Virus record (IMG/VR): IMGVR_UViG_3300006919_010853
Span: 1 to 28,051 of that record
Direction: 5' to 3' (one strand)
Length of the DNA: 28,051 bases
From: a virus
The translations under genes were made by a program, and so were the position numbers. The notes under the pieces were generated by a model. It had not been told where the DNA came from and made no database searches. It saw nothing but the letters and a program-made list of their open reading frames with translations. Positions 446-19,732 of this stretch are shown here, one piece after another (position 1 is the stretch's first letter; the number at the start of each line of letters is the position of its first letter).

Positions 446-799
446 ATGGCAGTCATTCACCCAGCAATATCAGGTAACCCAGTACTCAATGGTTGTGCAG
501 CCATGAGCACTAAAGTTACAGGTTTTACAACTTACTATTGCGGTGATTGTAATTATCACCCAGAAATAGGTTTTTCAGATTGCTGTTGCAATCCATATGG
601 CGGCAGTGCTTGGTTAGATAATCCAAATGCAGAAGTTATTTCTCCTACAGGTGGAAGCGGAGTATTTGATGAAACTCTTGGTGATCGCTTGAACGTCTGC
701 GACCAGTGTGGCGGTGGCGGCGGCGGCGGCGGTGGATCAGAAGGATACCTAGTTGATGGAGGATTTTCGGATACAGTCCCCGGCACACCTATCCCTTAA
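446..799 (+). CDS. Cys-rich protein with polyglycine tract, unknown
   Basis: Unknown family. The 117-residue protein has eight cysteines (17, 32, 35, 46-48, 85, 88), including a CCC triplet and two CxxC pairs, followed by nine consecutive glycines (89-97) and a Gly/Pro-rich end. The pattern suggests metal binding or disulfides joined to a flexible linker. GAGG lies about 8 nt before the ATG. It precedes the tail-fibre gene, so it may be a small virion or fibre-associated protein (inference). The antisense frame is also open and Pro-rich, but that only mirrors the GGC/GGT run. Confidence 0.7.
   Translation: MAVIHPAISGNPVLNGCAAMSTKVTGFTTYYCGDCNYHPEIGFSDCCCNPYGGSAWLDNPNAEVISPTGGSGVFDETLGDRLNVCDQCGGGGGGGGGSEGYLVDGGFSDTVPGTPIP
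710..736 (+). repeat. GGN trinucleotide run encoding Gly9
   Basis: Nine glycine codons in a row, six of them GGC, form a GC-rich microsatellite in an otherwise AT-rich region. Such a run is prone to slippage, so linker length could vary between related phages. It lies in frame inside the Cys-rich gene at 446. Confidence 0.9.
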
Positions 800-3363: not shown

Positions 3364-3744
3364 ATGCGAAAACCCGGATATAAAACAAGTGAATTTTGGT
3401 TCACATTAGTCAGTTTCATTTTTAGCGGACTCTTCCTAGCAGGGATTATAGGAGATATTGATCAGAAAGACGAATTAACCAGTGTTGTCACCCACGCAGT
3501 TGAATCTATCATACTTATAGCCGGACAATTTGGAATTTTATCAAGATATTTAAAGACTAGAACTCCTGAGCCTGTAGCGGAGCCTACACCTCCAGAACCT
3601 TTGGAAGAACCCGAACCTGAACCACAAGAATCCGAAAGGGAAACCAATGAGCGAAGCGACCAAAGAACAGATAACCGTCGAGTTCGATCAAGTGATCGCA
3701 GACGTAAAAGAAAGCCTAGGCGAAATAAAAAGATTAGCAATTAA
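3364..3744 (+). CDS. Holin-like two-TM protein with acidic and basic tail
   Basis: The 126-residue product has two membrane segments, about 11-30 and 40-60, preceded by a short basic end (MRKPGYKTSEFW). This layout resembles small holin-like proteins of phages and bacteria, whose role is to permeabilise the inner membrane at lysis. Residues 67-91 are Glu/Pro-rich, and residues 92-124 are extremely Arg/Lys-rich. The last 32 or so codons overlap the start of the next gene in another frame, so the basic tail may result from overprinting. No endolysin is recognisable next to it, which keeps the holin call tentative. Confidence 0.55.
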   Translation: MRKPGYKTSEFWFTLVSFIFSGLFLAGIIGDIDQKDELTSVVTHAVESIILIAGQFGILSRYLKTRTPEPVAEPTPPEPLEEPEPEPQESERETNERSDQRTDNRRVRSSDRRRKRKPRRNKKISN

Positions 3745-4526: not shown

Positions 4527-5024
4527 ATGAAAGAAAAAATTGCATTAGCAATAGGAGCACTGTTAATTTTATTCGGACTCTTTCAGCCTGACCTTGGCAA
4601 CTTCGTGCCTTTCAAGCCAGAGGTCGTAGTTACTGTACCAACAACAGAAGCACCTTCGGATGAAGTACTTCTTGAAAAGGGTACTGTGATTGTAGACCTA
4701 TTGCGTGAGTCAAATGCTTCTGGTAAAAGAGAAGACTGTCTAAAACTTTCTTCTTTATACAGAGACATGGCTGTGCTTATTGGCCTAGACGGTAAAGATA
4801 ATGTAATTAAAACTACATCTGCTATTAGAGAAGCCAATATTCTTGCAGGCAAAATGCTTAGACTCGATGTAGACGGTAAGTACGAAGGTCTTGCTGATGC
4901 AGCAGGAGACTTGCTTGCTTCTACTATAGGTAAGGATGAAGTTGTTCTTAACGAAGACCTTAGAGAAAAAAGTGTAGATGCTTTTGAGGCTTTGTCGTGG
5001 GCTTTCTATGAAGGGAGCAAGTAA
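4527..5024 (+). CDS. Membrane-anchored or exported protein, unknown
   Basis: The 165-residue protein begins with a Lys-rich end and a hydrophobic segment (about 5-19, IALAIGALLILFGLF) that could be a signal anchor. A Pro/Thr linker (about 30-45) leads to a helical acidic domain. No cleavage site is obvious. A strong GGAG Shine-Dalgarno precedes the ATG. Its stop overlaps the ATG of the papain-like protease by one base (TAATG), so the two are probably co-translated and may act together; this is inference. Confidence 0.7.
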   Translation: MKEKIALAIGALLILFGLFQPDLGNFVPFKPEVVVTVPTTEAPSDEVLLEKGTVIVDLLRESNASGKREDCLKLSSLYRDMAVLIGLDGKDNVIKTTSAIREANILAGKMLRLDVDGKYEGLADAAGDLLASTIGKDEVVLNEDLREKSVDAFEALSWAFYEGSK

Positions 5025-5950
5025 TGCCAAGATATACACCTGATGAACTCTACAGAAACTATCGTGATGGTATGCCCGGATGTCTTTGGGAAGAACACGT
5101 ATTTGAAGAACTTCTAGCAACTTCTAAATATGCCTACTTTAAAGACGGTGCAAAGAAAATTAAAAACAGCGGCAAAGGTAAACTATCTACTCCTTTTCGT
5201 TCTGCTTTAAGTTTTGATAAGCACTGCTACATTGAAAGGCAAACCACTGGAGATTGTGTCAGCCATTCTACAAGAAACGCTGTTGATATTTCTAGAGCAG
5301 TAGAGATTCATGTAGACGGCGAAGCAGAAAGTTGGGTTGCCAGAGGAGCAACAGAAGCCATATATGGATGCAGAGGTCATGGTGGACAAGGCATGAGTTG
5401 TAGTCGTGCTGCAACCTTCGTTAGCCAGAGTGGTGGCGTTCTTGTTCGCAAGAACTATCCCGGCGTAGCAGACTTTAGTAAATACAATGGAACTATGGGT
5501 GCAAGATGGGGATCAAGAGGCTTACCAGACAAGGTTATAGACGAAGCCGAGAAACATAAAATCAGAACGGTTTCGTTAGTAAAAACTGTGGAAGAAGCCA
5601 GAGACGCTTTAGCCAATGGGTATGGCATAAGTGTGTGTAGTGGCTATGGATTTTCCAACAAGCGTAGCAGTACTGGATTTGCTCGTAGAAGCGGGTCGTG
5701 GGCTCATGCAATGGCATGGACGGCTTGTGATGATACAGGTAAAGAGCCAGCCTTCCTTGTGCAAAACAGTTGGGGTAAATGGAACTCTGGTGGTCATCCT
5801 GAATGGGGTCCGATACCAGATGGTTCATTTCTCATACACGCTGATGTGGCAGCAGGAATGTTAAGAGGCAACGGAGCATATGCTTTTAGTTCCTTCAACG
5901 GTTTTCCTCCACAAGAATTACCAGATTACGGTTTTGACTCTTATCTATAA
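5024..5950 (+). CDS. Papain-like (C1-type) cysteine protease
   Basis: Probable cysteine protease of 308 residues. The catalytic set of the papain clan is visible in order: Gln73 and Cys78 (RQTTGDCVSHS), His228 (SWAHAMAW) and Asn248 in the hallmark VQNSWG (246-251). Spacing from Gln to Cys is one residue shorter than in papain. There is no signal peptide and no obvious propeptide beyond a 65-residue N-terminal region. The protein is related to the larger protein at 9495: shared TP(D/E)ELY near the N-terminus, RNAVD after the Cys, RGATE, QGM, and SGGHPxWGPxPxGxFL near the end. It starts at a TAATG overlap. Among virion genes it could be structural, processing or envelope-acting (inference). Confidence 0.8.
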   Translation: MPRYTPDELYRNYRDGMPGCLWEEHVFEELLATSKYAYFKDGAKKIKNSGKGKLSTPFRSALSFDKHCYIERQTTGDCVSHSTRNAVDISRAVEIHVDGEAESWVARGATEAIYGCRGHGGQGMSCSRAATFVSQSGGVLVRKNYPGVADFSKYNGTMGARWGSRGLPDKVIDEAEKHKIRTVSLVKTVEEARDALANGYGISVCSGYGFSNKRSSTGFARRSGSWAHAMAWTACDDTGKEPAFLVQNSWGKWNSGGHPEWGPIPDGSFLIHADVAAGMLRGNGAYAFSSFNGFPPQELPDYGFDSYL

Positions 5951-5961
5951 AGGTTTTAATT

Positions 5962-6720
5962 ATGGCAGACGCAAAAATTACACAGTTACCAGAGGCTACA
6001 CAGGTAGACGAAGATGATGTACTCGCTTTGGTTACAAATACTTCTACTACACCTATTAGTAGAAAAGTCACAGCAGGTCGTCTTGTAAAAGAACTGGCAT
6101 TGCCTGCTGATCAACTTGTAAATGGCACTGGCATATACGTAGAGTCTATCCCTAATAATGACCCAGATCAGTACAGTCAAGCAAAAATTAGTGTCTTACC
6201 CGATGAAGTACAAAGCATGGTAAACCCTATTTATGTATTACAGAACAATGAGACTATAAGTGCAAACGTAACCCTTTCACTACCTTCTGTTACAGGGATA
6301 CTAAAGGCGGGAGAAGAATACGTTGGAGAACTACATATGGCCTTTGAGACTGATAGCATTATATCTGCTAACCCTGCAACTCTACAGTGTACTCTTAATA
6401 ATATTGCTTTAAACTATGTCGGTAACTGGGATAAGTTAGTTGTAGTTGACAATGATTCAACCAGAATGGAACATCAACAAGACTCTTTTGCTAAAGTTCA
6501 AAATCAAGGTATCATTATTGATTTTGGTACTGATCCCTCTATTGGGTTTGGTGGAGGCGTTAAAACTATAACTTCTAATCAAAATTTTTATATTAAAAAC
6601 GACACAGCCCAACCTCAAAACTTTGGAATAGATATTTTTACAAACCTGCTAACAGGCGGTGCTAGTACTCTAAAAATACTTAAAGGCAGTTACTTAAAAA
6701 TGATAAAGGTGGTTCAATGA
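5962..6720 (+). CDS. Probable virion structural protein
   Basis: The 252-residue protein opens with ADAKITQLPEATQVDEDDVL and LVTNTSTTPISRKVTAG, an N-terminal pattern seen in many phage tail, fibre and capsid-decoration proteins (a K-I-T-x-L-P-x-A-T motif followed by an acidic D-x-L repeat). The rest is beta-rich with a Gly patch (GFGGGVKTI). AAGG lies upstream of the ATG. It ends at ATGA shared with the next small gene. The exact virion role is unknown. Confidence 0.65.
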   Translation: MADAKITQLPEATQVDEDDVLALVTNTSTTPISRKVTAGRLVKELALPADQLVNGTGIYVESIPNNDPDQYSQAKISVLPDEVQSMVNPIYVLQNNETISANVTLSLPSVTGILKAGEEYVGELHMAFETDSIISANPATLQCTLNNIALNYVGNWDKLVVVDNDSTRMEHQQDSFAKVQNQGIIIDFGTDPSIGFGGGVKTITSNQNFYIKNDTAQPQNFGIDIFTNLLTGGASTLKILKGSYLKMIKVVQ

Positions 6721-6872
6721 GACTTTTAGATAAAATTGCGATGAACAGATTGATCAAGATTATAATGGATTTTATCTTGGCTATATGTAAAATGTTTGCT
6801 CCTACAGTTAATGTGGAGGAGCCAGAAAAGAAAAGACCAATTTTAGACAAATTAAGGAGATGGATAAAATGA
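6717..6872 (+). CDS. 51-residue membrane-associated protein
   Basis: A short gene that fills the gap between the structural protein and the serine protease. It is coupled at both ends by ATGA overlaps (start at 6717 inside the preceding stop, stop at 6870-6872 inside the next start). The product begins MRLLDKIAMNRLIKIIMDF, has a hydrophobic middle (about 11-28) and a basic, Pro-containing tail. This suggests a membrane-associated peptide. The precise overlaps support real translation. Function unknown. Confidence 0.65.
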   Translation: MRLLDKIAMNRLIKIIMDFILAICKMFAPTVNVEEPEKKRPILDKLRRWIK

Positions 6873-7723
6873 TTACACGCAGAACAATATTAACTTCGCT
6901 ACTGGTAGCATTAGTATTCACAATACCATTTCCATTATACGGTGAAGAACCCCCAGTTAGCACATTTCTCCAAGAAATCAGTGTTACAATCAAAACTGAT
7001 AGGGGCGAAGGTAGCGGAGTTATTTTTACAAGAGAAATTAAGTCAAAGAACGGTAAACAGAACGTAAACTTTGTTTGGACTGCTGCTCATGTTTTGGAAA
7101 ACATCCGTAATGTTCGTAGTGTTTTGGATGCAGAAGGCAAATCTAAAAAAATCATTGAGTTCAAGGATGTACAGATAGTTAAAAAACTAATAGAGAATGG
7201 TATTACAGTTGGGGAACTGTCAATGGATGCCGTAGTAGTTAAATACAGTGATGCCAAAGATGGAGAAGACCTTGCACTGCTTATGATTAAGAAGTTTAAC
7301 TTTGTGGACAAGTCGGCTAAATTTTATGTTGACAAAGCAGGCAGAGGATTGCCTCTAGGAACAAATTTGTATCATGTAGGTTCCCTATTAGGTTCAGGTG
7401 GAAGCAACAGTATGACTACTGGTATTATGAGCCAAGTCGGTCGTATGCTTTCTTTAAACGGTGGGTCAAAAGTACTTTTTGACCAAACGACAGTGACGGC
7501 CTTTCCGGGTTCGTCTGGTGGCGGGGTTTTCTTAACGACAGGTGAATATATTGGTATGCTTGTTCGCGGTGCTGGCGAAACATTTAACCTTATTGTTCCA
7601 ATTCGCAGAATGACTGATTGGGCCGAAGAAGAGAATATAAAATGGGCCTTAGACCCAGAAGAAAAAGCACCATCTTTAGAAGAAATTAAAAAGTTACCAA
7701 AAGAGAGGATCGGTAAAGTATGA
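6869..7723 (+). CDS. Secreted trypsin-like serine protease
   Basis: A serine protease of the chymotrypsin/trypsin fold, 284 residues from the ATG at 6869. That start is preferred over the ATG at 6860 because AAGGAG (6854-6859) lies 9 nt before it and touches 6860 directly. The N-terminus is a good signal peptide (RR at 4-5, hydrophobic 8-22, likely cleavage after Gly25), so the enzyme is exported. The triad is clear: His74 in WTAAHV, Asp134 in EDLALL, Ser216 in PGSSGGG (trypsin GDSGG position). No PDZ domain follows, unlike HtrA. It is coupled by ATGA to genes on both sides. Substrate unknown; host envelope proteins or virion proteins are possible. Confidence 0.85.
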   Translation: MITRRTILTSLLVALVFTIPFPLYGEEPPVSTFLQEISVTIKTDRGEGSGVIFTREIKSKNGKQNVNFVWTAAHVLENIRNVRSVLDAEGKSKKIIEFKDVQIVKKLIENGITVGELSMDAVVVKYSDAKDGEDLALLMIKKFNFVDKSAKFYVDKAGRGLPLGTNLYHVGSLLGSGGSNSMTTGIMSQVGRMLSLNGGSKVLFDQTTVTAFPGSSGGGVFLTTGEYIGMLVRGAGETFNLIVPIRRMTDWAEEENIKWALDPEEKAPSLEEIKKLPKERIGKV

Positions 7724-7956
7724 TCGGGAAAGTTTTATTATGCGGTGTACTTGCTAGTGTCGTAGCGTTTTCTACACTGCCTAAATATAGTACTACTGCT
7801 GTAACTACTTTAGTAGGTGCAGTAATAAAAGCCTCTCAGTCAGTGGATGTGACAGAGAAATACAAACGAAAGGATTGTCCAGTTTGTGAAGGTAAAGGTT
7901 GGTACTGGAGTGGTGATGGAATTGCTAAAATAAATTGTCAATACTGTGAGCCATAA
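7720..7956 (+). CDS. Small membrane-anchored zinc-finger-like protein
   Basis: The 78-residue protein has a hydrophobic N-terminus (about 4-20) and a C-terminal pair of CxxC motifs, C53PVCEGKG and C73QYC, like one DnaJ-type CxxCxGxG zinc-binding unit. It probably binds one Zn ion or forms disulfides, tethered to the membrane. It starts at ATGA overlapping the serine-protease stop, so it may be a partner of that protease (inference). Family not named with confidence. Confidence 0.65.
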   Translation: MIGKVLLCGVLASVVAFSTLPKYSTTAVTTLVGAVIKASQSVDVTEKYKRKDCPVCEGKGWYWSGDGIAKINCQYCEP

Positions 7957-7957
7957 A

Positions 7958-8344
7958 ATGGAAAACCAAGAAAAACTCAAGGCAATAGCCACATCAATTT
8001 TAGAAAAAGCAAACTATCGCAGCACCGATGTAAGTGGTGATGAAGATGAACATGGTAGCGTTATAGCCGTTATTATGATCATAAGTACTTTGCTTACTTT
8101 GATTAGAATAGTTCAAGAATGCAACAAGAACAAAGACAAGATGTTCTATGCAAACAGAATTAGAGACATTAGTGTACGAAGAGGCTGGTACACAAAAATG
8201 CGTATTAAAAGGATTCTCAGGCGTGAGTTAACGCCAGAAGACTATCGCAAAAATGCAACCTCACTAGTTAATGCAATTCTGGATGAAGCAGCACAAATCA
8301 AGGAAGAAGACCTTATAACCATACTGGAGTCAGCAAATGTTTAA
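7958..8344 (+). CDS. Single-TM protein of unknown function
   Basis: The ATG at 7958, one base after the previous stop, gives 128 residues; a GTG at 7946 is possible but would overlap the previous gene and has no better ribosome site. There is one membrane segment at about 34-53 (VIAVIMIISTLLTLIRIV), a basic patch at 66-89 and a helical acidic end. It belongs to the membrane-protein run. Function unknown. Confidence 0.7.
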   Translation: MENQEKLKAIATSILEKANYRSTDVSGDEDEHGSVIAVIMIISTLLTLIRIVQECNKNKDKMFYANRIRDISVRRGWYTKMRIKRILRRELTPEDYRKNATSLVNAILDEAAQIKEEDLITILESANV

Positions 8345-8585
8345 TTTATTTACATGGGCGGTATATGGAATCTTCGTAGGATCAATAGCAAAATCAATAG
8401 TTCCCGGTGAAGAGAACTTTGGTTTTTTAAAAACAATAGCGTTAGGTGTAGCAGGATCGTACATGGGAGGTGCAGGACTATATATGCTAGGATCATATTC
8501 TGCCGTAGAACCAGCAGGTATATTTGCTGGTGTCGCTGGTAGTGTGCTGGCTCTTGTTCTGTATAATAAGTTAAATGAAAAGTGA
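8337..8585 (+). CDS. GlsB/YeaQ/YmgE-family small membrane protein
   Basis: The 82-residue protein has three short hydrophobic helices with glycine-rich faces and the typical order: FVGSIAKSIVPG, then FLKTIALGVAGSYMGG, then a final GIFAGVAGSVLALVLYN. This matches the GlsB/YeaQ/YmgE (transglycosylase-associated) family of small bacterial inner-membrane proteins, whose molecular role is poorly known and is linked to stress responses. TGGAG sits 7 nt before the ATG, and the gene overlaps its neighbours on both sides. In a phage it could alter the host membrane or serve as a holin-like component (inference). Confidence 0.75.
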   Translation: MFNLFTWAVYGIFVGSIAKSIVPGEENFGFLKTIALGVAGSYMGGAGLYMLGSYSAVEPAGIFAGVAGSVLALVLYNKLNEK

Positions 8586-9498
8586 TAAAGTAGCAGTTTT
8601 TTTACATTTATATCATACGGACCTAGCAAAGACTTTTCTAGGGGAACTCAGTCCCATTAAGGACTTAGTGGATGTCTACATAACGCTTCCTGATAGCAAA
8701 GACTGCGAAGAGGCTAAAAGCCTTCTAAAGCCCTTAAATCCCTCATTTGAATACGTTCCTAACCTAGGTACAGACATAATGCCTTTCTTAAAATTGCTTA
8801 ATAAATATGGCAAAAACTATAAGTACTTTCTTAAAATGCACAGTAAAAAATCTCTTAGAGACAATCATGCTAATTGGCTAAATATTTTCTTACATGAATT
8901 AATCGGGGATAGAGATAATTTTAAAAAAAATATCAAGTTAATGGAAGACTATGATCTTATTGGCCCACCCTCTTGTATCATGGATAATGAAAACATACAT
9001 ACAACTTGGATAGATTATTTGATGCATGAAATAAAAATGCCTAATGACCATAGAAATGCTTTTATAGCAGGCACAATGTTTATGGGACGAAGCGACACAT
9101 ATTTAAAATATTTTGATAAAAATGTTGCACAATGGCTGGAAAGCCTTATGATAAAGAGAGGAGAGGTAGGCCATGTGAAAGATTGGGATCATCCAAGACA
9201 GATAGAAATACACAGTTATGTACATTCTATAGAAAGAATGTTTGGATATGTTGGAGAACTAGGCATCACAGAGCCATTTACGTATAAACTAGAAGTAGAC
9301 AATGGCCCACAAACTCTGACTAGAAATATAGTGATTACTAAATATAAGGACATATATGATACTTTTCATAGTTATGTATATGGTATAATTACTGGTCGGC
9401 AAGACGACACAATAGAAGTAGTATGGTATCATAAAAGACCGAAACTCAAAAAAATATATACACTAGATCATGAGAATAGATTGATGGTGGAAAAATGA
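8575..9498 (+). CDS. RgpF-like (rhamnan synthesis F) glycan protein
   Basis: The 307-residue protein matches the rhamnan-synthesis-protein-F family, found in bacterial polysaccharide clusters. Supporting motifs are the N-terminal VAVFLHLYHTDL, VPNLGTDIMPFL (61-72), FLKMHSKKS (85-93) and FIAGTMFMGR (163-172). Family members are treated as glycosyltransferases or glycan-assembly proteins acting in the cytoplasm. It overlaps the GlsB-like gene by 11 nt and the following gene by ATGA. It sits among structural genes, apart from the main glycan operon at 13068, which hints that a virion protein is the acceptor; that is inference. Confidence 0.7.
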   Translation: MKSDKVAVFLHLYHTDLAKTFLGELSPIKDLVDVYITLPDSKDCEEAKSLLKPLNPSFEYVPNLGTDIMPFLKLLNKYGKNYKYFLKMHSKKSLRDNHANWLNIFLHELIGDRDNFKKNIKLMEDYDLIGPPSCIMDNENIHTTWIDYLMHEIKMPNDHRNAFIAGTMFMGRSDTYLKYFDKNVAQWLESLMIKRGEVGHVKDWDHPRQIEIHSYVHSIERMFGYVGELGITEPFTYKLEVDNGPQTLTRNIVITKYKDIYDTFHSYVYGIITGRQDDTIEVVWYHKRPKLKKIYTLDHENRLMVEK

Positions 9499-11528
9499 CT
9501 CCAGAAGAACTTTATCAAACATTTTCTAAAAACCCTTGCGGCTTTATTGGTGCTCCTAGACAAATTGATGAACTAAAAGGAAATGGAGCAGTTTTTGGCA
9601 CTGGCCCTTCATACAACTCTTACGGATATATAGAATATGCACAAGGAAATGTTCCATATTGGCTGGCTAGAATTGTTGATATTTCTAGTTTCCTATACAG
9701 CCCTTGTATAGAGCCTATACTCAGCAGTGCATATGATAACAACTTCCATAATTATAAGTTGTGTCTCCCGTTTAAGTTTTTACAAATTTTAGATGGTGGA
9801 GCATATCAAGAATCCCAGTCTCTTCCTCAATGCGGCGTTGCACATAGTTTCAGAAACGCAGTGGATACCATGAGAGCCTGCCACCACATAGCAAAAAAAG
9901 GTATTGGAAATAGCGATTTTACTAGAGGTGCTACTGAACACATGACTTATTGGGGGTGGAACAGTATACCAGAAAATTTATTAATGCTTGGTCCTGACTT
10001 GGTAGGCTCAGAAATTCAAAGCGAAAGATTTCCAACTGGAACAGATATGGGTTGCTGGCCCGGAAGTCAAGGAATGCCGGGAGCGGCACACGGTTGTGTA
10101 GCATGTCCCGGTGAAGAAAGAGAGACTTGTAAATCATGCGGTTGTTGTCCTCCTACTGGACCTCCCGATGATCCTTGTTGCAATCCCGGCACACCAGATT
10201 GGGCAGAACGATGTTGTGGATACAATAGAATAAGTGCTTTTAATATTGCTTATTTCGTTCCTTCTCAAGACGCAGGAGAGTCGTTCGGAGGAGATATATT
10301 AACTGGTAGATTAGATGACAAACTTTACCACGTAGGAATATTAGAAAGAAAGGAATATGGAGGGGTGTGCTCTTTAAGAAATAGTTCTGCTGACAGACTT
10401 AAAAGTATAGACAATGGTTTATTCTTTACATATTTTCAAGAACGTAACGGTTGGGACTATGGAAACGATGACTACGAAGGAATGGGTCCAACGCCCGTAA
10501 CAAAAAGCAACCCTATAGAAAGATGTAGAACGGCGATGCCCGTTATGCTTCCTGCAAGCGTAAGTAGTAAAGGAGGTATGCCACAAACAGATACGGATTA
10601 TGGCCTCAAACTTATAAAACAATTATTATGGAATGGTGAAGGTGTTGCACTTTTTTCAAATGTTGGGTTCCCAAATGTTAGAGACAGTCAGGGTCTACTA
10701 TATCCAGACAGAATATGGTATCAGATGTACAGTATTATTGGCTATGATGATCGTTGTCTAGAGTTTGAAGAATGTGTCTATGTTTTGCATTGTCCTTTTG
10801 GAGATTGGGTTTCTGGTGGACATCCATCTTGGGGGCCATTGCCAACAGGTGCTTTTCTTGTTACTGAAAGCGTATTAAAAGAAATGATTAAATATATGAA
10901 TGGTTCTGATTATTATGGATGTAGATCAAGAACCTGTCCTGATCCTTCAGCAAGCCCTCCACCAGACTGTAGTGATCCATTTGTACGTGATGAATATTTA
11001 GGATGTAGTGCGGTTCCTGACTATCCCAACTGCCTTCCTTATTTTTGTCAGCCTAGACAAAGTGCTTTTGGTATGCTTTTTGCATTCAGTTTAGATAGAG
11101 ATTTAACGCAAGACAATTATAATGATACATTATTTAAATGGGAACAGTTTATTCCTAGTTGGTCTACTGCTGAACTTTTGAAACAAAGCATGGCATACAC
11201 TGAACTACCTAGTGTGAGTGATATTGATAACGCAGCAGGAGATGGCCTATCACTGGAAATACAATTTATTTGGAACGGGTCCGATGAAAATATGTATAGA
11301 GAAAGAGAGTTGATAAACCATGTCTATGTACACTCCTCAGAACATCAAGACATAATTGTTCAAGACACATCTCTTAAAAGCAGATGCCAAAACCGACAAC
11401 CAGATGACCCCGTATTAAATTTTACTTTAGATATTAAGCCTTATTTTGGTTATATAAAAATAGAAAATAAAGTTCCAGACAATATTACAAAGACTACTAT
11501 TACAGGATATGGAGCCTTTAATGGATAG
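9495..11528 (+). CDS. Degenerate papain-like paralogue with Cys-rich insertions
   Basis: A 677-residue relative of the protease at 5024. Shared features are TPEELY (2-7), PF..Y.E.Q....C (92-113), RNAVD (120-124), RGATE (144-148), QGM (192-194) and SGGHPSWGPLPTGAFL (440-455). Gln108 and Cys113 align with the active Gln and Cys. The His position is Gln410 (IWYQMY) and the Asn position is Cys433 (LHCPFG), so peptidase activity is unlikely. Large insertions add Cys/Pro-rich segments, about 186-241 (CKSCGCC, DPCCNPG, ERCCG) and 474-520. The C-terminal 150 residues look like a separate domain. The start is ATGA-coupled to the RgpF-like gene. It is probably a virion protein reusing the protease fold. 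Confidence 0.75.
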   Translation: MTPEELYQTFSKNPCGFIGAPRQIDELKGNGAVFGTGPSYNSYGYIEYAQGNVPYWLARIVDISSFLYSPCIEPILSSAYDNNFHNYKLCLPFKFLQILDGGAYQESQSLPQCGVAHSFRNAVDTMRACHHIAKKGIGNSDFTRGATEHMTYWGWNSIPENLLMLGPDLVGSEIQSERFPTGTDMGCWPGSQGMPGAAHGCVACPGEERETCKSCGCCPPTGPPDDPCCNPGTPDWAERCCGYNRISAFNIAYFVPSQDAGESFGGDILTGRLDDKLYHVGILERKEYGGVCSLRNSSADRLKSIDNGLFFTYFQERNGWDYGNDDYEGMGPTPVTKSNPIERCRTAMPVMLPASVSSKGGMPQTDTDYGLKLIKQLLWNGEGVALFSNVGFPNVRDSQGLLYPDRIWYQMYSIIGYDDRCLEFEECVYVLHCPFGDWVSGGHPSWGPLPTGAFLVTESVLKEMIKYMNGSDYYGCRSRTCPDPSASPPPDCSDPFVRDEYLGCSAVPDYPNCLPYFCQPRQSAFGMLFAFSLDRDLTQDNYNDTLFKWEQFIPSWSTAELLKQSMAYTELPSVSDIDNAAGDGLSLEIQFIWNGSDENMYRERELINHVYVHSSEHQDIIVQDTSLKSRCQNRQPDDPVLNFTLDIKPYFGYIKIENKVPDNITKTTITGYGAFNG

Positions 11529-13005
11529 ATTAGAAACATACAACCTGACCATAGTTAATGGTACAACTGAACAAAATTGCTCTTATGCCAATCCTAGTAA
11601 CAGTATTTATTTCGATATAGATGCCACTGATTGCTTCTTTAATGGTGGTGCTATAAATATATATGATTTTAAAATGACCCAAAGCAAAATATGTGCCAAG
11701 ACTTTAGAGACACCTTTTCCTGTTCTAGGTTGTGAATACAATCAAAGAGGAATAGTCAAACAGCCTTCGCAAGAATACAGATCAGTAGAAGAATGTGCTA
11801 CTCTGCTTGGCATCGAAAGACCAGAAGCAGGCGATGGCTTTGCTTTTCCCAACGGTATTGATTGGACTTCACCCGATACTTATCAGAACACACCTGCCTA
11901 CAACTATTGGCTTGGTAGAAAAGAACAGGGAGATACTGTAGCATTAAATCCAAATTATCCTTTTACGAATTTCTGGGACAGGTGCGAAATAAGTTTTTAC
12001 GGTAAACCATTTGGAGTTTGTGGATTATTTGGGTATGTAAACGGAGGATATATGCACTGCCATTCTTTTGATTGGTCTTTATGGGACTTAGATGTTTTAC
12101 AGGTTATGGTGGACACTGGTTCTTGGCAATCCTCTCCTCAAGCAGGAGAGTCAAACTATGCCACTACTAGACAAAGAATGGAGATTGACTTTACTAATGA
12201 TCAAATCTTCCCCTTTGAACAAAAAAAACTTGCTAATTTTGTTAGACCTCTCCCTAAAAGGTTGAGTTTTGTAGATTTAACTGCTTATGTCATTGATCTT
12301 TCTGCTGGAGATAGAGGTCATATACCCGGAGAACAAAGAATACTTAGTCCTTATGAGATAGATTGGGGTTCACTTGGAAATGTAGAATGGGGATACGGTA
12401 GTGTCACATGCAAAGCAGATGTTGCAGGAGGAGGCTTGTTATCTATAGGAACAGATGCTAGTTCCGTAAATATATATCACTTTAACGTAAACGCAAGTGA
12501 AATTCAGATAGTTCCTGCACTTGAAATAGACGCACAAAGTTCTGTTGTTGCTAGAAGCATGAGGTGTGGCGGTAGCGTAACCCTAATGAATTTTTCTGTT
12601 ATTAGCGTCAGTTCAGTGACCATCGGTGAAACTTTTACAATGGGGTCATTAAGCAGAGCAATAATTGCAGCAGGTTCATTTCAATCCATATCAGCAATAA
12701 ACAGCGTATTAGTTGCTGAAGATAAGTGGACCGTTGCAGATCAATTTTCAGCAACCAATGGTTGTAGTTTACAAGGAAATACATTTGAGTTTAATGATGA
12801 TGTGACAATCGCAGGCTCAAGCATTAAAGTCCAAAAGATAACAACAGCAAATAGTTTAACGCTAGAATCTACCACGGCATCTATAGGCGTGGCAGAAGCC
12901 GGTGATACATGGTCTATCACAAACGGCAGTAACGTAACAATAGGAACTCTTGTGGGACCAATGCCAGATGTTGATGAGACCAGCACCCTGACGATAACTA
13001 ATTAA
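11521..13005 (+). CDS. Probable virion structural protein with beta-repeat C-terminus
   Basis: The ATG at 11521 is chosen over 11509 because GGAG (11511-11514) lies 6 nt before it; this gives 494 residues and an 8-nt overlap with the previous gene. The N-terminal half is rich in Cys, Tyr and Trp. From about residue 290 the sequence becomes short Val/Ile/Ser/Thr repeats with alternating Gly, Ala and Asn (VTIGETFTMGS, VTIAGSSIKV, GSNVTIGTLVG), suggesting a beta-helix or beta-solenoid like phage fibre or spike domains. No enzyme motif was seen. It is the last gene before the promoter at 13012 and may be a fibre or spike coat protein and glycan acceptor (inference). Confidence 0.65.
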   Translation: MDRLETYNLTIVNGTTEQNCSYANPSNSIYFDIDATDCFFNGGAINIYDFKMTQSKICAKTLETPFPVLGCEYNQRGIVKQPSQEYRSVEECATLLGIERPEAGDGFAFPNGIDWTSPDTYQNTPAYNYWLGRKEQGDTVALNPNYPFTNFWDRCEISFYGKPFGVCGLFGYVNGGYMHCHSFDWSLWDLDVLQVMVDTGSWQSSPQAGESNYATTRQRMEIDFTNDQIFPFEQKKLANFVRPLPKRLSFVDLTAYVIDLSAGDRGHIPGEQRILSPYEIDWGSLGNVEWGYGSVTCKADVAGGGLLSIGTDASSVNIYHFNVNASEIQIVPALEIDAQSSVVARSMRCGGSVTLMNFSVISVSSVTIGETFTMGSLSRAIIAAGSFQSISAINSVLVAEDKWTVADQFSATNGCSLQGNTFEFNDDVTIAGSSIKVQKITTANSLTLESTTASIGVAEAGDTWSITNGSNVTIGTLVGPMPDVDETSTLTITN

Positions 13006-13067: not shown

Positions 13068-13682
13068 ATGTCAATAACTTATGCTATAACTATTAATGAT
13101 GAATTAAATAGTGTTAAAAGGCTTATGCACACACTAGAAGAGTGCAAGGAAAAAGACTCTGAGATTCTAGCAGTACACTGCTACAGCCGGACAGAAGATA
13201 TGTCCGATAGTAACCACATTGAAATCAAAGAGTATCTCATGGAAAATACAGACACATACTGTAACTATAAGTTCGACAACAATCTCGCGGACTTAAAAAA
13301 CTATATTATTAGTATTTCTACAAAGGAATATATATTTCTGTTAGATGCAGACGAATATCTTACGACACAAACCCTAGCACTGTGGAACAATGTAATAAAA
13401 AATGAGCCTCAGTATGATGTGTTCTGGACTCCTAGAGTTAATATCATAGAAAACTTAACACAGGAAGATATAAAAAAGTTTGGGTTAAAACTTAATGACA
13501 AAAACTGGATCAACTGGCCCGACAACCAACCACGCATATTTAAAAACAACGGTAAAATTAAATGGACAATGGAAAACAACAACTATAGATTGGTAGGGGC
13601 TGCTAAATCAGGGTCGTTGACAGCAGACCCAAGACTTGCCACCATAAACAGAAAGGACAGCATGGATGTACAAAGAACTTAG
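13068..13682 (+). CDS. GT-A family glycosyltransferase (GT2-like)
   Basis: First gene of the glycan operon, 204 residues. It has the GT-A signature of a DxD metal site in YIFLLDADEYL (Asp93-x-Asp95-Glu96), preceded by NNLADLKNYIISIS, which resembles the A-x-x-x-N motif of GT2 enzymes, and a later WPDNQPRIF (150-158). It would transfer a sugar from a nucleotide donor in the cytoplasm. It is shorter than typical GT2 proteins, so it is a minimal catalytic domain. It overlaps the next gene, a relative, by 17 nt. Donor and acceptor cannot be told from sequence. Confidence 0.75.
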   Translation: MSITYAITINDELNSVKRLMHTLEECKEKDSEILAVHCYSRTEDMSDSNHIEIKEYLMENTDTYCNYKFDNNLADLKNYIISISTKEYIFLLDADEYLTTQTLALWNNVIKNEPQYDVFWTPRVNIIENLTQEDIKKFGLKLNDKNWINWPDNQPRIFKNNGKIKWTMENNNYRLVGAAKSGSLTADPRLATINRKDSMDVQRT

Positions 13683-14388
13683 TTTATGTTTAGCAATAGC
13701 AAATTCAGCAGATTGTCTACCAAGATTTATGTCGTGGGCCTTACCACGTTTCGAGGATATTATCATACTCAAGTCAGATTCAGATGATTATACTGACGCT
13801 ATGCTAGATCGTTACGCCGCTGACAATGAGAGTATATCATTATATTATCAACCCATTAGAAACATAGCACACCAGAAACAGACCTGTGTTGACTATAGCG
13901 ATAAAGAGTACAAACTTATTATTGACGCTGATGAGATTGTACAAGAAACAAATTGGGATGAAGTAGTAACCTATATGAAAGATCAGAAAATTAATCTTAT
14001 ACATTTACCTAGATTGAATCTACAGAAAGACGATAAGCACTATCTTCCCGATGCCTACCCAGATTATCAGCCTAGGTTGTTCGACTCCACTGTGTCATTT
14101 AATCTTGAGCCTCTTTATGAAACACACCATGTTATGCAGGGTGCTAATAGTCAATCGGCATTGCAAGAAACCCACATAATACACTGGGGTCATATCAGAA
14201 ATGAAGAACAGATGCAATGGAAAAGTGACATGCGTAAACAATATGCAAAAACTGATCGCTGTGACGGCAAGGGTCTCTTAGAAACAAAAAATTGGTACTA
14301 TGAACGCAATAAAACATTAGGCTTTGACGAAAAAGCATTGCCTTTATCACAAAAAATTATAGACTACATATACTCAATAGAGGAATAA
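13666..14388 (+). CDS. GT-A family glycosyltransferase, paralogue of previous
   Basis: The 240-residue protein has the same layout as its upstream neighbour: YKLIIDADEIV (Asp87-x-Asp89-Glu90), a PRLNL segment (115-119) and YPDYQPRLF (131-139), which parallels WPDNQPRIF. The two probably arose by duplication and may add different sugars. AAGGAC lies 8 nt before the ATG at 13666 and decides this start over the ATG at 13662, which is in another frame. There is no membrane segment, so it is cytoplasmic. Confidence 0.75.
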   Translation: MYKELSLCLAIANSADCLPRFMSWALPRFEDIIILKSDSDDYTDAMLDRYAADNESISLYYQPIRNIAHQKQTCVDYSDKEYKLIIDADEIVQETNWDEVVTYMKDQKINLIHLPRLNLQKDDKHYLPDAYPDYQPRLFDSTVSFNLEPLYETHHVMQGANSQSALQETHIIHWGHIRNEEQMQWKSDMRKQYAKTDRCDGKGLLETKNWYYERNKTLGFDEKALPLSQKIIDYIYSIEE

Positions 14389-14389
14389 A

Positions 14390-15028
14390 ATGGAAAAAAT
14401 ACGATACATAACTTCTATGTTTCCCTTTGCCAAAAAACTGCGTGAGGTTTTTGGAGTAGATGACTTGTCTGCTATACAAAGTGATATACCTTTACTCAAA
14501 AGAGAAAACGATCAATCCACCATACATCATCACCAGTTTTACGAATGGACAGAAGGTGACGATTTTAAAGATATGTACAGAGATTTTATTAGAGTTTGCG
14601 TTCGTCCTCTATATATAGGTAAAATAGTTGTGCAGGCAAACCCTACTTTTAGAATTGCTTACCCTAATAATGTAGCCGTAGGTGAATTTCATAAAGACAA
14701 AAACTATAGAGACCCAGAATGGGCGGCAAAGATTAAAGAGATGAACTACTACCTTCCTTTAACAGATGCTTTTGGCACAAATACTTTCTGGGCAGAATCA
14801 GAAGAAGACAAAGGAGACTTTGCTCCAGTTGAATGCGAACATGGATACTACATAAGGTGGGATGGTGTAAATCTAACACATGGAAATAAAATTAATACTA
14901 CAGGCAAAACAAGGATTAGCGTAGACTTTAGGGTTTGTGAACTTAAAAATTTTGAACCATCGGAGACAGGCAGTATCAATGAAGACAGGAAGTTTGAGAT
15001 AGGAGGATATTACGAATTATATGATTAG
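14390..15028 (+). CDS. StrG-like Fe(II)/2-oxoglutarate oxygenase
   Basis: The 212-residue protein carries an iron-binding facial triad: His101-x-Asp103 in GEFHKDKNY, and His164 in NLTHGN, with Arg175 in KTRISVDFRV placed to bind 2-oxoglutarate. The segment NYYLPLTDAFGTNTFW (119-134) is close to StrG, encoded in the streptomycin cluster, and to similar phage and bacterial proteins. It would hydroxylate or otherwise oxidise a small substrate; inside this operon a sugar or sugar nucleotide is the natural guess. GAGG precedes the ATG, and the gene starts 1 nt after the previous stop. Family call is good; substrate is inference. Confidence 0.75.
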   Translation: MEKIRYITSMFPFAKKLREVFGVDDLSAIQSDIPLLKRENDQSTIHHHQFYEWTEGDDFKDMYRDFIRVCVRPLYIGKIVVQANPTFRIAYPNNVAVGEFHKDKNYRDPEWAAKIKEMNYYLPLTDAFGTNTFWAESEEDKGDFAPVECEHGYYIRWDGVNLTHGNKINTTGKTRISVDFRVCELKNFEPSETGSINEDRKFEIGGYYELYD

Positions 15029-15809
15029 TTTAATTATACCCACATATAAAAATCCTACAGTACTAGATTTGTGTCTAAGGTCTGCTATCGAAGGTCAAGA
15101 CCAAGACAATGAAATATTGGTTATAGTAGATGGCTGCTTAGAAGAAAACCTAGATGTGCTTGAAAAATACACAGACAGTATCAAGCCTCAGATTCTTACA
15201 GAAAACGCTGGGATGAGCGTGGCACAAAACGTAGGAGTAGAAGCATCAACCACAGGCAAGATATTGATTATAAATGATGATAACGTCATGCCAAGAGGCT
15301 GGGATACTATATTAGACAAGTACGACCTTACCGATACAGTTTGGGCTCCTAATCACATTGAGCCTTTTCCTAGTATTTTTAGACAGATAAAAATAAAAGA
15401 CCTAGGCAGAGACCCTGCAACATTCGACCTTGAAAGATTCTGGAAATATGAAGAGAGCATCAGGGAAGACTGTATAGAAATGAATGGTTCCACATATCCG
15501 ATACTAATGAGTAAAGAAAACTATCAGGCTGTTGAAGGCTTTGACGTAGACTATCCCACCAAGGCTGGCTCTGTGTCAGATTGGGATTTTTTCTTAAAGT
15601 GTGAACTCAACGGATGGAAGATGCTCAGGACATACCAATGTTCTCTGTATCACTTTGTTTCAACAACAAGAAAGTCTAAAGAAGAACAGCAAAGAGCGTA
15701 TCAAACAGAACAAGACTGTAAGGCATTTTTTGCCAAGAAATGGGGAACATCGCCACAACACAATCCAATAACTAACTCCAAGATGATAAAGGTGAATAAT
15801 GTCAACTAG
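15021..15809 (+). CDS. GT2 family glycosyltransferase
   Basis: A canonical GT-A fold enzyme of 262 residues. It opens with ISLIIPTYKNP, has LVIVDGC at 33-39, NAGMSVAQNVGV at 62-73, the metal-site loop INDDN (84-88) and a catalytic-loop SDWDFFLKC (186-194) with Asp187 and Asp189. It inverts the linkage when transferring a sugar from a nucleotide donor. It overlaps the oxygenase by 8 nt and the epimerase by 11 nt. It is not closely related to the two GT-A genes at the start of the operon. Confidence 0.85.
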   Translation: MISLIIPTYKNPTVLDLCLRSAIEGQDQDNEILVIVDGCLEENLDVLEKYTDSIKPQILTENAGMSVAQNVGVEASTTGKILIINDDNVMPRGWDTILDKYDLTDTVWAPNHIEPFPSIFRQIKIKDLGRDPATFDLERFWKYEESIREDCIEMNGSTYPILMSKENYQAVEGFDVDYPTKAGSVSDWDFFLKCELNGWKMLRTYQCSLYHFVSTTRKSKEEQQRAYQTEQDCKAFFAKKWGTSPQHNPITNSKMIKVNNVN

Positions 15810-16824
15810 ATTTTTAATTACAGGCTGTGCTGGCCTACTGGGTTCTAATCTTGCAGATTGGATTCTCGATACATGGAAGCCGTCTATAGCATTAGATCAT
15901 ATACAAAACAACGTAGAGGTATATGGTATTGACGATCTAAGCGGAGGATATAAAGAAAACCTGCACCCAGACCTCAAGTTCAAGGAAATGTCTGTACTAG
16001 ACCCTGAATTTGTAGATTACTTTGCAGAGATTAAGCCAACTCATGTTTGGCATTTAGCAGCATACGCAGCAGAAGGTTTGAGTCCTTTTATACGGTGTTT
16101 TAACTATGACAACAACCTAAAGGCTACAGCATCCGTAGTCAACTGCTGCATAAAACATAATGTGAAACGCCTGTGTTTCACCTCAACTATGGCGGTATAC
16201 GGCGAAGGTGAGCCCCCTTTTGATGAAGTACTTTTACCTAAGCCTATTGACCCTTATGGCGTAGCCAAGTACGCAGCAGAAATGGATATTCATATTGCTG
16301 GTGAACAGCATGGTCTAGATTGGTGCATTATACGTCCTCACAATGTTTATGGTCGAAAACAAAACATCTGGGACAAATATAGAAATGTGCTAGGCATCTG
16401 GATGTACCAAACTTTAAATAATGAACCTATGACTATCTTCGGTGACGGTGAACAAAAGAGAGCATTTAGTTACATTAATGATAGTGTCGAACCTTTGTTC
16501 AAGGCTTGCGTGGACCCAAGAGCGTCTAAGCAGATTATTAATCTTGGAGGTATCCATGAATACAGCATCAATGAAGCGGCTGACATTCTTATTAAAGTGA
16601 TGGGCAAAGGCGAGAAAAAATACCTAGAGACTAGGCATGAAGCAAAATACGCCTATCCTACATATCAAAAGTCTATAGATAAATTAGATTATAAACATAC
16701 CACCTCATTAGAGGACGGGCTAAAAGATATGTGGGATTGGGCTAATAGCCAACCGAACCGTGAAAGGTTTATTTGGCCCTTTTATGAATTAGACAACGAG
16801 ATGTACTCTTACTGGAAAAATTAA
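15799..16824 (+). CDS. NAD-dependent nucleotide-sugar epimerase/dehydratase
   Basis: An extended short-chain dehydrogenase of 341 residues, the usual length for this family. The Rossmann dinucleotide site is ITGCAGLLGSN (Gly9, Gly12, Gly15), followed by VYGIDDLSGG for the NAD ribose. The catalytic Ser/Thr is in FTSTMAVYG (127-135) and YxxxK is Tyr153/Lys157 (YGVAK). RPHNVYG and AFSYINDSV are typical of UDP-glucose 4-epimerase-like enzymes. It probably interconverts or dehydrates a nucleotide sugar; the exact sugar is not determinable. AAAGGTG sits 5 nt before the ATG. Confidence 0.85.
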   Translation: MSTRFLITGCAGLLGSNLADWILDTWKPSIALDHIQNNVEVYGIDDLSGGYKENLHPDLKFKEMSVLDPEFVDYFAEIKPTHVWHLAAYAAEGLSPFIRCFNYDNNLKATASVVNCCIKHNVKRLCFTSTMAVYGEGEPPFDEVLLPKPIDPYGVAKYAAEMDIHIAGEQHGLDWCIIRPHNVYGRKQNIWDKYRNVLGIWMYQTLNNEPMTIFGDGEQKRAFSYINDSVEPLFKACVDPRASKQIINLGGIHEYSINEAADILIKVMGKGEKKYLETRHEAKYAYPTYQKSIDKLDYKHTTSLEDGLKDMWDWANSQPNRERFIWPFYELDNEMYSYWKN

Positions 16825-16825
16825 T

Positions 16826-17833
16826 ATGGCACAGAAGAAAATACTGGTTACGGGAGCAGCAGGATTTTTAGGCTCTCATTTTGTAGAAGAAACATTAGTT
16901 AACACAGATTGGAATATTGTGTGCTTGTGTAGAATGACTTACGTAGGAGACCTAGAAAGAATTATACACAGTCTTCATGTGCGTAAGTATGCAGACAGGG
17001 TAAAACTAGTGTTCCATGATCTCAAGTTTGATATTCCTCCGCACATTGAAGAGGCTATAGGCGATGTAGATTATATTGCACATATAGCGGCTAACAGTCA
17101 TGTAGATCGTAGCATCACACACCCTAAACAGTTTTTTGAAGACAATGTGATGGGAAGCGTTAATCTGTTAGAGTGGTACAGGAGGACAAACCCGTCAGCC
17201 CTGTTTATTAACTACCTAACGGACGAAGTGTTCGGACCTGCACCAGAAGGCTATGATTATAAAGAGGACGACAGATGGCGACCTAGCAATCCCTACAGTG
17301 CAAGTAAGGCCGGTCAAGGTGCTGCTGGTATAGCATATTTTAATACTTATAATCTGCCTATTATTAGTACTTACACTATGAATCTGTACGGAGAAAGACA
17401 ACACAAAGAAAAATTAGTGGCTAAAGCAATTCAGAAGATTCATAACGACGAGATTGTCCCTATTCATGCCAAGATGGATGGTAATAAGGTTTTGTATGTA
17501 GGACAACGGCACTGGCTACATGCTCGTAATGCTTCTAATGCAACTTTGTTTTTAATTAATCATGGCGTACCGGGAGACCACTATAATGTGGTTGGGCCAG
17601 TAGAAATGAATAATGATGATTTGGTAAGGGCTATAGCCAAGATCATGGGTAAAGAACCAAAAATACAGTATGTAGATTGCGACAAGGCAAGACCGGGACA
17701 TGATCGTAGATATGCACTTGATGGGTCAAAATTACGAGATATGGGATGGAAGTTGCCTCTAGACTTTGAGACATCTCTTTCTAAGACTATAGATTGGGTT
17801 TTGAATGATAAAGATAAGCAATACAACTATTAA
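16826..17833 (+). CDS. rmlB: dTDP-glucose 4,6-dehydratase-like enzyme (RmlB-like)
   Basis: An extended SDR of 335 residues with RmlB hallmarks. It has a TGAAGFLGSH NAD site (Gly10, Gly13, Gly16), ANSHVDRSI (89-97), the catalytic TDE triplet at Thr132-Asp133-Glu134, YSASK (Tyr157/Lys161) and ARPGHDRRYALD (288-299). RmlB converts dTDP-glucose to the 4-keto-6-deoxy intermediate used for rhamnose and many other deoxysugars. The RmlC-like gene follows with a 29-nt overlap. RmlA and RmlD are not in the window, so the host or genes elsewhere would supply them. The call to dTDP over another nucleotide is by family. Confidence 0.85.
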   Translation: MAQKKILVTGAAGFLGSHFVEETLVNTDWNIVCLCRMTYVGDLERIIHSLHVRKYADRVKLVFHDLKFDIPPHIEEAIGDVDYIAHIAANSHVDRSITHPKQFFEDNVMGSVNLLEWYRRTNPSALFINYLTDEVFGPAPEGYDYKEDDRWRPSNPYSASKAGQGAAGIAYFNTYNLPIISTYTMNLYGERQHKEKLVAKAIQKIHNDEIVPIHAKMDGNKVLYVGQRHWLHARNASNATLFLINHGVPGDHYNVVGPVEMNNDDLVRAIAKIMGKEPKIQYVDCDKARPGHDRRYALDGSKLRDMGWKLPLDFETSLSKTIDWVLNDKDKQYNY

Positions 17834-18323
17834 TGATTGCGTGGTGCTCACGCCAGATATACACAAGGACGAACGAGGTGTGTTTGCAGAGATGTACAAG
17901 AGGTGTGCTTTTCCTCAATTTATTCCTTTCCAAAGCAACTATAGCAAGTCGTCTATTGGAACTATACGTGGCATACACCAAACTCCCTACGCAAAATTAG
18001 TTACCTGTGTTTCAGGCAAGGTGTATGATGTATGTGTAGACCTAAGACCAGAAAGCGAAACGTACAATCAGTATTTTGGTATCAATTTGACTGCTGACAA
18101 CTTACAAAGTTTGTACATTCCACCGAATTGTGGTCATGCGTTTTTTGCGACGACCGACTGTGTTTTGTATTACCAGCAAGATTCAGCCTACGATTCTGAG
18201 CATGACTATGGGTTCTGCTGGTGCGACCCTACATTTAATATTGTTTGGCCCGTGATAAAACCTACTGTAATATCAACAAGGGATAAAAACTCATGCGAAG
18301 AAGTGATAAAAAAAGATTATTAG
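17805..18323 (+). CDS. rmlC: dTDP-4-keto-sugar 3,5-epimerase-like enzyme (RmlC-like)
   Basis: A 172-residue cupin with the RmlC order of motifs: DERGVFAEMY (22-31), SNYSKSSIGTIRGIHQ (44-59) with the base His58, KLVTCVSGKVYDVCVDLR (64-81), LYIPPNCGHAFF (103-114), paired Tyr122-Tyr123, and a C-terminal DPTFNIVWP. RmlC epimerises C3 and C5 of the 4-keto-6-deoxy sugar made by RmlB; relatives epimerise only C3. It starts inside rmlB, overlapping by 29 nt, with no strong ribosome site, so coupled translation is likely. Whether it is a 3,5- or a 3-epimerase is not clear. Confidence 0.85.
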   Translation: MIKISNTTINDCVVLTPDIHKDERGVFAEMYKRCAFPQFIPFQSNYSKSSIGTIRGIHQTPYAKLVTCVSGKVYDVCVDLRPESETYNQYFGINLTADNLQSLYIPPNCGHAFFATTDCVLYYQQDSAYDSEHDYGFCWCDPTFNIVWPVIKPTVISTRDKNSCEEVIKKDY

Positions 18324-19732
18324 ATAATATCAGTCCGAAAGAGGTTCTTAAAGAGGTTTTGAAACTAGAACCTAAATTTAATCACTACCAATACTTGGAA
18401 ATGAATCCCGATCTAGAGGAAATGGAACTCACTAATCATATTGATTTAACAATCCATTATTTTTTAGAAGGTCATCAGGCAGGTAGGCCTGCATTTAATC
18501 CACACTTAGTCAAGTTAGATGAACTGCCAGAAAACTTTGATGAAGAAGTTTATAAATTTATGAACTTAGATGTGGCAATGAATGTCAAAGATGTGGTAGG
18601 TCATTTTTTAAACATTGGATACGGAACAAACAGAACTTGGAACATAGGAATGACCTATGAGGAAATGAATAAATTCCTAGTTGAGCAAGACATAGAAATG
18701 GCAGATGGTTCGATAGTTATCGTAAACCATGAGTCTACCATAAGTGGAGCACCATTTTTTGCTCAAGACTTAGCAAACTGGCTTATAGCACAAGGTTTTG
18801 AAAATGTAGTGTTTCTAGACGCTCACCCAAGTAAATGCTTTACATTGAACAAGAAAATTAAACATATGTATTATTTTAACAATACAAATATTTTATTAGA
18901 TATTTTAAACATGGGTAATCCTAGTGTCATTTATAATAATTCTATGACACGTATGGTTACAGACTATGATACATTCGCCCATCTTGCTGAAAAAACAATT
19001 TATCACTTTCATGAAACTTATGTAGACGCAATTAGGTATTTTCGAGGGGAACGAAAACGAATGTTTCAACTTATCGCAAATGCCAAAGCCGTATTTTTTG
19101 TGGCAAAAAAAATCAGAGACAACTTTAAATTGCCTCCTGAGTTAATAGACAAAAGTTATGTTGTTCCAGAATTTGTAGATGATACTAGAGTCAAAAAAAT
19201 TAAAAAGAACAAGAAAAGAACCAAACTTAATAAACGTGTTAAAATTGCTATGTGCGGTACAATTAATGCAAGAAAAAATATTAGGTTATTTGTAGAGACA
19301 GCCAAGGCCTGTCCAGAATATGATTTCGTATGGATAGGAGGCAAATTAGACACATTAACAATTCCAAATCTAGAATTTATAGATGTGGTTAAAAATCCGC
19401 ATGAATATTTAGAAAAATGTGACTACCTTTTCTTGACTAGTAACCGCGATCCTTGTCCGATTGTAGTACTAGAGAGCCTATTAATGAACCATAAGATAAT
19501 AGTATGCGAGAACAATATTCGCTATAACCACCCCGTTGATGAACTAGAAAACTATTTAGTAATTAAAGACCATAACTTTGACGTTAAAGAAATTATTAAA
19601 AAGTTTAAAGCACTAGATTTAAATACCAAACCACAAAAGACACAGAAAAATAAACAATATTTTGAAGAAAACTTTACCCACCCTCATGTAGTAATACCGG
19701 ACAACGTAAACTTTGAGGAGTTTTTCAAATGA
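18293..19732 (+). CDS. GT-B (GT4-like) glycosyltransferase, tandem copy 1
   Basis: The 479-residue protein has two parts. Residues about 28-115 carry repeats of a motif seen at the ends of many polysaccharide enzymes (YLEMNPDL ... HYFLEGHQAGRPAF). A GT-B core follows: VNHESTISGAPFFAQDLANW (144-163) for the acceptor-side domain, then IAMCGTINARKN (318-329), FVWIGG and SNRDPCPIVVLESLL (383-397) with the donor-binding Glu394. It is a close relative of the next gene. It overlaps rmlC by 31 nt. It is probably a retaining glycosyltransferase in the cytoplasm; donor unknown. Confidence 0.8.
   Translation: MRRSDKKRLLDNISPKEVLKEVLKLEPKFNHYQYLEMNPDLEEMELTNHIDLTIHYFLEGHQAGRPAFNPHLVKLDELPENFDEEVYKFMNLDVAMNVKDVVGHFLNIGYGTNRTWNIGMTYEEMNKFLVEQDIEMADGSIVIVNHESTISGAPFFAQDLANWLIAQGFENVVFLDAHPSKCFTLNKKIKHMYYFNNTNILLDILNMGNPSVIYNNSMTRMVTDYDTFAHLAEKTIYHFHETYVDAIRYFRGERKRMFQLIANAKAVFFVAKKIRDNFKLPPELIDKSYVVPEFVDDTRVKKIKKNKKRTKLNKRVKIAMCGTINARKNIRLFVETAKACPEYDFVWIGGKLDTLTIPNLEFIDVVKNPHEYLEKCDYLFLTSNRDPCPIVVLESLLMNHKIIVCENNIRYNHPVDELENYLVIKDHNFDVKEIIKKFKALDLNTKPQKTQKNKQYFEENFTHPHVVIPDNVNFEEFFK

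Follow-up and report, generated by a model that had tools for sequence, protein, structure and literature searches.

The window analysed here, the 28,051-base IMG/VR virus record IMGVR_UViG_3300006919_010853 (positions 1-28,051), encodes a pair of papain-family paralogues: F, a predicted C1A-type cysteine peptidase of the active type, and S, a larger predicted pseudoenzyme (Table 1). Both assignments are well supported by sequence comparison and structure modelling. The two reading frames start at 5024 and 9495 and have 308 and 677 residues, as given in the initial annotation of this DNA. Papain-type phage peptidases are already known (PMC10380794; BFVD entries). A phage pair of papain-type enzyme and pseudoenzyme was not found in a partial literature search, which agrees with the earlier impression that such a pair is undescribed.

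The F/S pair in uncultured phages

Relatives of F are common, with 394 candidate IMG/VR stretches encoding one. S used alone as query in a direct scan gave no relatives, and its family surfaced only after relatives had been aligned; S relatives were recovered with aligned profiles. Residue conservation was counted on distinct proteins (98 F and 25 S). In many related phages the active and inactive members share a strand and are separated by 1.2-4.3 kb. S was present in 6 of 80 loci fetched by F alone, and in 22 of the 91 distinct F loci with more than 5.5 kb of downstream DNA, a count raised by S-targeted searches. No relative of F occurs in 50,697 isolate phage records, and isolate phages gave no match to S, to the window DNA or to the distant F relatives. 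F, and in a subset S as well, is carried by large, uncultured phages that together form a widespread group. A T4-like phage was considered and rejected, the Terminase_6C profile being unmatched in 14 long contigs; the Gp23 profile was also unmatched in these contigs, which is weak evidence because control genomes lacked a Gp23 match as well.

F keeps a complete papain-type active site

The residues proposed in the initial annotation as the active site of F, namely Gln73, Cys78, His228 and Asn248 (within NSWG), are intact and in this order in all distinct F proteins (98/98). The AlphaFold (AF2) model of F shows a papain fold predicted at good confidence (predicted local distance difference test score, pLDDT, 83.3; predicted template modelling score, pTM, 0.86), in which the long core helix 78-98 begins at Cys78. 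The best match of this model in the PDB was xylellain (3ois; VIA Z 20.3 over 232 residues, root-mean-square deviation 3.2). Residues 5-50 of F align with procathepsins at the location of the propeptide, which suggests that F may be a self-inhibited precursor. The F proteins contain a mean of 6.4 Cys per protein.

Inserts were found in six F proteins, of 648-680 residues. In L142-L144 (L143:4306-6348) the insert runs right up to Cys78, so that this Cys takes the +1 position; in L092 (L092:4710-6728) the insert lies immediately after His228, and in L090 and L091 (L090:2998-4944) immediately after NSWG 248-251. The Pfam profile Intein_splicing scored above its cut-off in L092 and L143, and LAGLIDADG_3 did so in all three insert types. 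Native inteins prefer conserved positions close to active sites (PMC3359363). Three intein sites, each touching one triad residue, would be difficult to account for if the active site of F were unimportant, and they constitute strong indirect evidence that its catalysis matters. They also form an unusual natural record of important enzyme positions. By length and alignment, none of the 25 S proteins carries an intein-type insert. A further homing-type element, a free-standing gene that reads as HNH-endonuclease-like, lies between g8 and F in another locus (L086:2971-3654).

S is a relative of F that has lost its catalytic residues

The relationship between S and F that had been noticed initially was borne out by BLASTP (E 5e-15 over F residues 189-281, the His/Asn region, and 1e-7 for the Cys region) and by a hidden Markov model (HMM) built from F proteins only, which scored 72-136 bits against all S proteins (worst E 1.1e-20); on these values a chance similarity was rejected. 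F and S also have in common an N-terminal peptide, TPxELYxxY. In the alignment the His of F is matched in S by Gln410 and its Asn by Cys433, as first read; the first reading had overlooked that the nucleophile is lost as well. One additional residue precedes the catalytic helix in S, so that Gly112 and not Cys111 occupies the nucleophile position, and Cys111 of the window protein has no conserved counterpart among the other S proteins. The nucleophile column of the 25 distinct S proteins holds Gly (20), Ala (2), Ser (2) or Thr (1), and never Cys. His is kept in 19 and lost in 6, Asn is kept in 16 and lost in 9, and no alternative catalytic set is conserved among them, in agreement with the pseudoenzyme proposed for S. 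The Cys/Pro-rich character ascribed to it also held: the window protein has 28 Cys (4.1% Cys, 7.5% Pro), and all 25 contain 20-30 Cys. The S model has a confident papain-like core, with lower confidence overall (pLDDT 65.5, pTM 0.72), and the core matched papain structures with VIA Z scores of 13-16 (3ois, Z 16.1; 2b1m, Z 14.0).

Pairwise identities are 61-99% (median 77%) for F, whereas they are 27-98% (median 43%) for S. In a tree built without the four catalytic columns and with seven relatives from genome contigs added, all seven of which have Cys, His and Asn, S falls within the F group as a single clade (100/100), whose stem measures 2.05 changes per site. Considering that S is one clade and that every outgroup protein has Cys, the nucleophile was lost once; the tree and the residue pattern are therefore explained by one duplication and one early nucleophile loss, with the exact branching point of S uncertain because the stem is long. 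The ratio of non-synonymous to synonymous substitution (dN/dS) between pairs was 0.10-0.36 for S and 0.02-0.06 for F, which indicates purifying selection on S and very strong purifying selection on F; one F comparison, of L117 with L123, is void because it ran on a placeholder. The history of duplication, residue loss and selection is documented by sequence and prediction as follows. An ancestral papain-type phage gene (C1A-like, xylellain-like) duplicated once. The F copy stayed a full Cys-His-Asn enzyme. The S copy lost the nucleophile on its stem, some branches of its clade then lost Asn and His too, and it gained Cys/Pro-rich insertions.

Two other readings of S bear on this history. The graded loss of catalytic residues and the fast evolution of S would fit a functionless, decaying duplicate, but the 25 distinct copies have intact frames of 515-750 residues, and S has a high Cys content throughout and a conserved fibre-like partner; with the dN/dS values given above, S is a maintained gene rather than debris, and decay is largely refuted and scarcely credible. 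It is also very improbable that some S proteins, those of L060 and L076, are serine-type enzymes and not pseudoenzymes. Both have Ser at the nucleophile column and keep WYH and NSWG; however, they are just two of the 25, their sister L096 has Gly, and the window protein has Gly and lacks both His and Asn.

Gene neighbourhood of F and S

In every one of the 50 distinct F loci whose upstream DNA reaches far enough, the cassette g5-g8 lies 5' of F. The initial annotation spoke of a structural block, which holds in that fibre-like and glycosyltransferase genes surround F, and does not hold for F itself, which ends a membrane-protein cassette. An Mtd_N fibre-like protein is encoded upstream of F. 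A large repeat-rich fibre-like gene directly follows S in most loci, and its N-terminal profile is almost confined to S loci, with one weak exception that has no S. This tight link gives indirect support, at the level of gene order, to the suggestion that the protease fold of S may be reused as a structural or binding module. A PF04226 match fell within a 40-protein set that contains the G001 homologue of g13, with the matching member not named. The G001 gene set also includes a match to a ClpP-type head-maturation protease. Between F and S (window 6860-7723) there is a second protease in the block, a trypsin-like serine protease that has a hydrophobic segment at its N-terminus.

Table 1. Coordinates of F, S and neighbouring genes in the window, and of genes pointing to the host in a 171-kb contig (L103, L106).
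Feature	Position	Strand	Basis
F, 308-residue papain-like cysteine peptidase, predicted active type	5024..5950	+	conserved tetrad, AF2 model, VIA match
F Gln73-Cys78 codons (oxyanion Gln and nucleophile)	5240..5257	+	alignment; model helix 78-98 begins at Cys78
F His228 codon	5705..5707	+	His in 98/98
F Asn248 (NSWG) codon	5765..5767	+	Asn in 98/98
S, 677-residue F paralogue, predicted catalytically dead	9495..11528	+	homology to F, S clade 100/100, papain-like model core
S Cys111-Gly112, Gly112 at nucleophile position by helix register	9825..9830	+	alignment of 25 distinct S
S Gln410 at His position	10722..10724	+	F/S alignment
S Cys433 at Asn position	10791..10793	+	F/S alignment
S Cys/Pro-rich insertion, about residues 187-241	10053..10217	+	alignment, Cys counts
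g5, two predicted transmembrane (TM) segments, charged C-terminus, holin-like	3364..3744	+	hydropathy; weak PF04531, E 0.16
g6, 144-residue conserved cassette gene without TM segment	3647..4081	+	50/50 loci
g7, 137 residues, single TM segment	4097..4510	+	50/50 loci
g8, 165 residues, N-terminal anchor (TM 5-23), abuts F	4527..5024	+	adjoins F in 88/98 distinct loci
g10, fibre-like 'MADAKITQLPEA' protein after F	5962..6720	+	sequence; no significant profile match
g12 and g13, conserved small proteins with TM segments, in the F-S interval	7946..8585	+	conservation, hydropathy
g14, RgpF-like (rhamnan synthesis), abuts S	8575..9498	+	PF05045 E 6.6e-17
g16, 498-residue fibre-like partner, overlaps end of S	11509..13005	+	directly 3' of S in most S loci
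DUF1559 pilin-like genes and DUF1501-like gene, 171-kb contig	L103:14726-15796, L106:12876-13859, L106:17163-18461	-	

Host

Two DUF1559 genes and one DUF1501 gene lie in the 171-kb contig of L001; both families are known mainly from planctomycetes, and the genes are possibly host-derived auxiliary genes. Distant relatives of F, at 32-34% identity, were found in metagenome-assembled genomes (MAGs) of Gemmataceae and Thermoguttaceae. The two nearest clearly planctomycete relatives have at the N-terminus either a TM segment or a twin-Arg-like leader, and an integrase-like gene lies close to one of the planctomycete-MAG relatives. The host probably belongs to the Planctomycetota; descriptions of the planctomycete envelope speak of a protein layer that is rich in proline and cysteine and is held together by disulfide bonds (PMC3035269). 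The MAG labels Lokiarchaeota (L181, L182), SAR202 (L180) and Flavobacteriales (L179), all on contigs with F relatives, were not accepted as hosts, because L179, which bears a g5-g8/F-type cassette, and L180, which bears g8-like and dCMP-deaminase-like genes, have the gene content expected of phage contigs mis-binned into unrelated genomes.

Proposed roles of F and S

The host cell envelope is the most likely target of F, which probably has a role in lysis, where it would be released and would cut envelope proteins. It may be made as a self-inhibited precursor, from the last gene of an invariant cassette that also encodes a holin-like protein with two TM segments and two proteins with a single one. 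The lysis role is favoured because of this membrane cassette and because six common peptidoglycan-hydrolase families were unmatched in 18 long contigs. S is most likely a non-catalytic, Cys-rich adhesin module made with the product of the following gene; within a virion adhesin, its former active-site fold and Cys-rich loops would provide a domain for binding or assembly, and the adhesin would be formed jointly with the large, repeat-rich fibre-like protein whose gene comes next. We give this reading as a whole, with a duplication, an envelope-directed protease and an adhesin-module pseudoenzyme, a little less than an even chance.

A number of observations weigh against it. F reached just 13 bits against PF00112, below the cut-off of 20.7 (E 0.11), as a divergent lineage would, and no export signal was found in it. 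The S model has a low mean pLDDT, its input alignment included six F rows, and a Foldseek search of the whole model against the PDB gave no match below 1e-3, so that the fold claim for S rests on VIA-align and homology. The Phage_holin_1 (PF04531) match of g5 is weak and below cut-off (E 0.16). In L060, L076 and L096 a glycosyltransferase-like gene and not the fibre-like gene follows S. Peptidoglycan hydrolases of other families, or encoded outside the partial contigs, could be missed. The host is itself inferred, with DUF1559 present in 3 of the 18 long contigs. Finally, the fibre-like genes on both sides of F make a virion role equally compatible with the gene order.

Such a role at entry is the main alternative: F would be a tail-borne or injected virion peptidase that breaches the envelope protein layer, S its inactive homologue with a structural part in that tail or fibre complex, and the membrane genes would provide ejection-channel or other parts. 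We consider it possible, though on the unlikely side. The flanking genes (Mtd_N upstream; g10 and S/g16 downstream) fit it, and the N-terminal peptide common to F and S could be a docking tag, but the g5-F cassette resembles a membrane or lysis set, and the N-terminal TM segment or leader of the F-like proteins from planctomycete MAGs suits secretion better than packaging. Maturation of phage proteins by F, such as fibre or head precursors, with S as its decoy, chaperone or substrate adaptor, would agree with the short same-strand spacing of the pair and with the frequent regulation of active paralogues by pseudoenzymes. It appears rather improbable, however, since most phages have F without S and a ClpP-type head-maturation protease match is already at hand in the G001 gene set.

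A more specific idea is that planctomycete phages rely on a papain-type protease, either in place of a peptidoglycan hydrolase or in addition to one, to open a disulfide-rich protein envelope, and that the dead copy has become a Cys-rich adhesin domain recognising the same layer; this we regard as speculative and doubtful. Later work has found peptidoglycan too in planctomycete envelopes. Should F indeed open the host envelope, planctomycete phage lysis would become directly testable.

Comparison with known papain-like proteins

Xylellain-type peptidases have been reported as acquired by Caudoviricetes (PMC10380794). F resembles xylellain of Xylella fastidiosa in its fold, its Gln/Cys/His/Asn tetrad and an N-terminal segment at the propeptide location; it differs in having 16% identity and no significant Pfam match, in lying in a phage membrane-protein cassette, and in that some homologues contain inteins and an inactive paralogue exists. 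S shares a papain-like topology and the missing nucleophile with the plant seed protein of PDB 2b1m/2b1n, which we take to be SPE31 of Pachyrhizus erosus with its catalytic Cys changed to Gly. That protein is short and has neither Cys-rich insertions nor a phage fibre-like partner, whereas many S proteins also lack His and/or Asn.

Papain-like viral lysins include the CHAP and NlpC/P60 endolysins and the pseudomurein endopeptidases C71 (PMC10318531). Like F they are papain-fold enzymes of viruses, and they open the host wall, but F belongs to another family, its tetrad is of the C1A type with NSWG, and its resemblance is to proteases that act on proteins and not on murein or pseudomurein. Inactive papain-like scaffolds are described in cellular organisms, such as Rad4, menin, OTULINL and DUF1175 (PMC10318531). 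As in S, their catalytic residues are gone, and they reuse the fold for binding; in contrast to S, they belong to other papain-like families, are cellular, and none is a phage paralogue. Conversion of enzymes into binders is well known in cells. Here an active parent and its dead copy lie a few kb apart in a phage. As their relatives have lost catalytic residues to differing degrees, the family would let the path from enzyme to pseudoenzyme be followed step by step.

Other observations

The F/S block is followed by a long series of glycosyltransferase-, epimerase- and sulfotransferase-like genes (window 13068-21740), which suggests phage-encoded synthesis of a surface glycan. Upstream of the Mtd_N fibre gene, at window 446-799, a small Cys- and Gly-rich protein of 117 residues is encoded that gave no PHROG match. 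In L010 (15594-16801) a ribonucleotide reductase is split into several short frames, as a pseudogene or through assembly errors.

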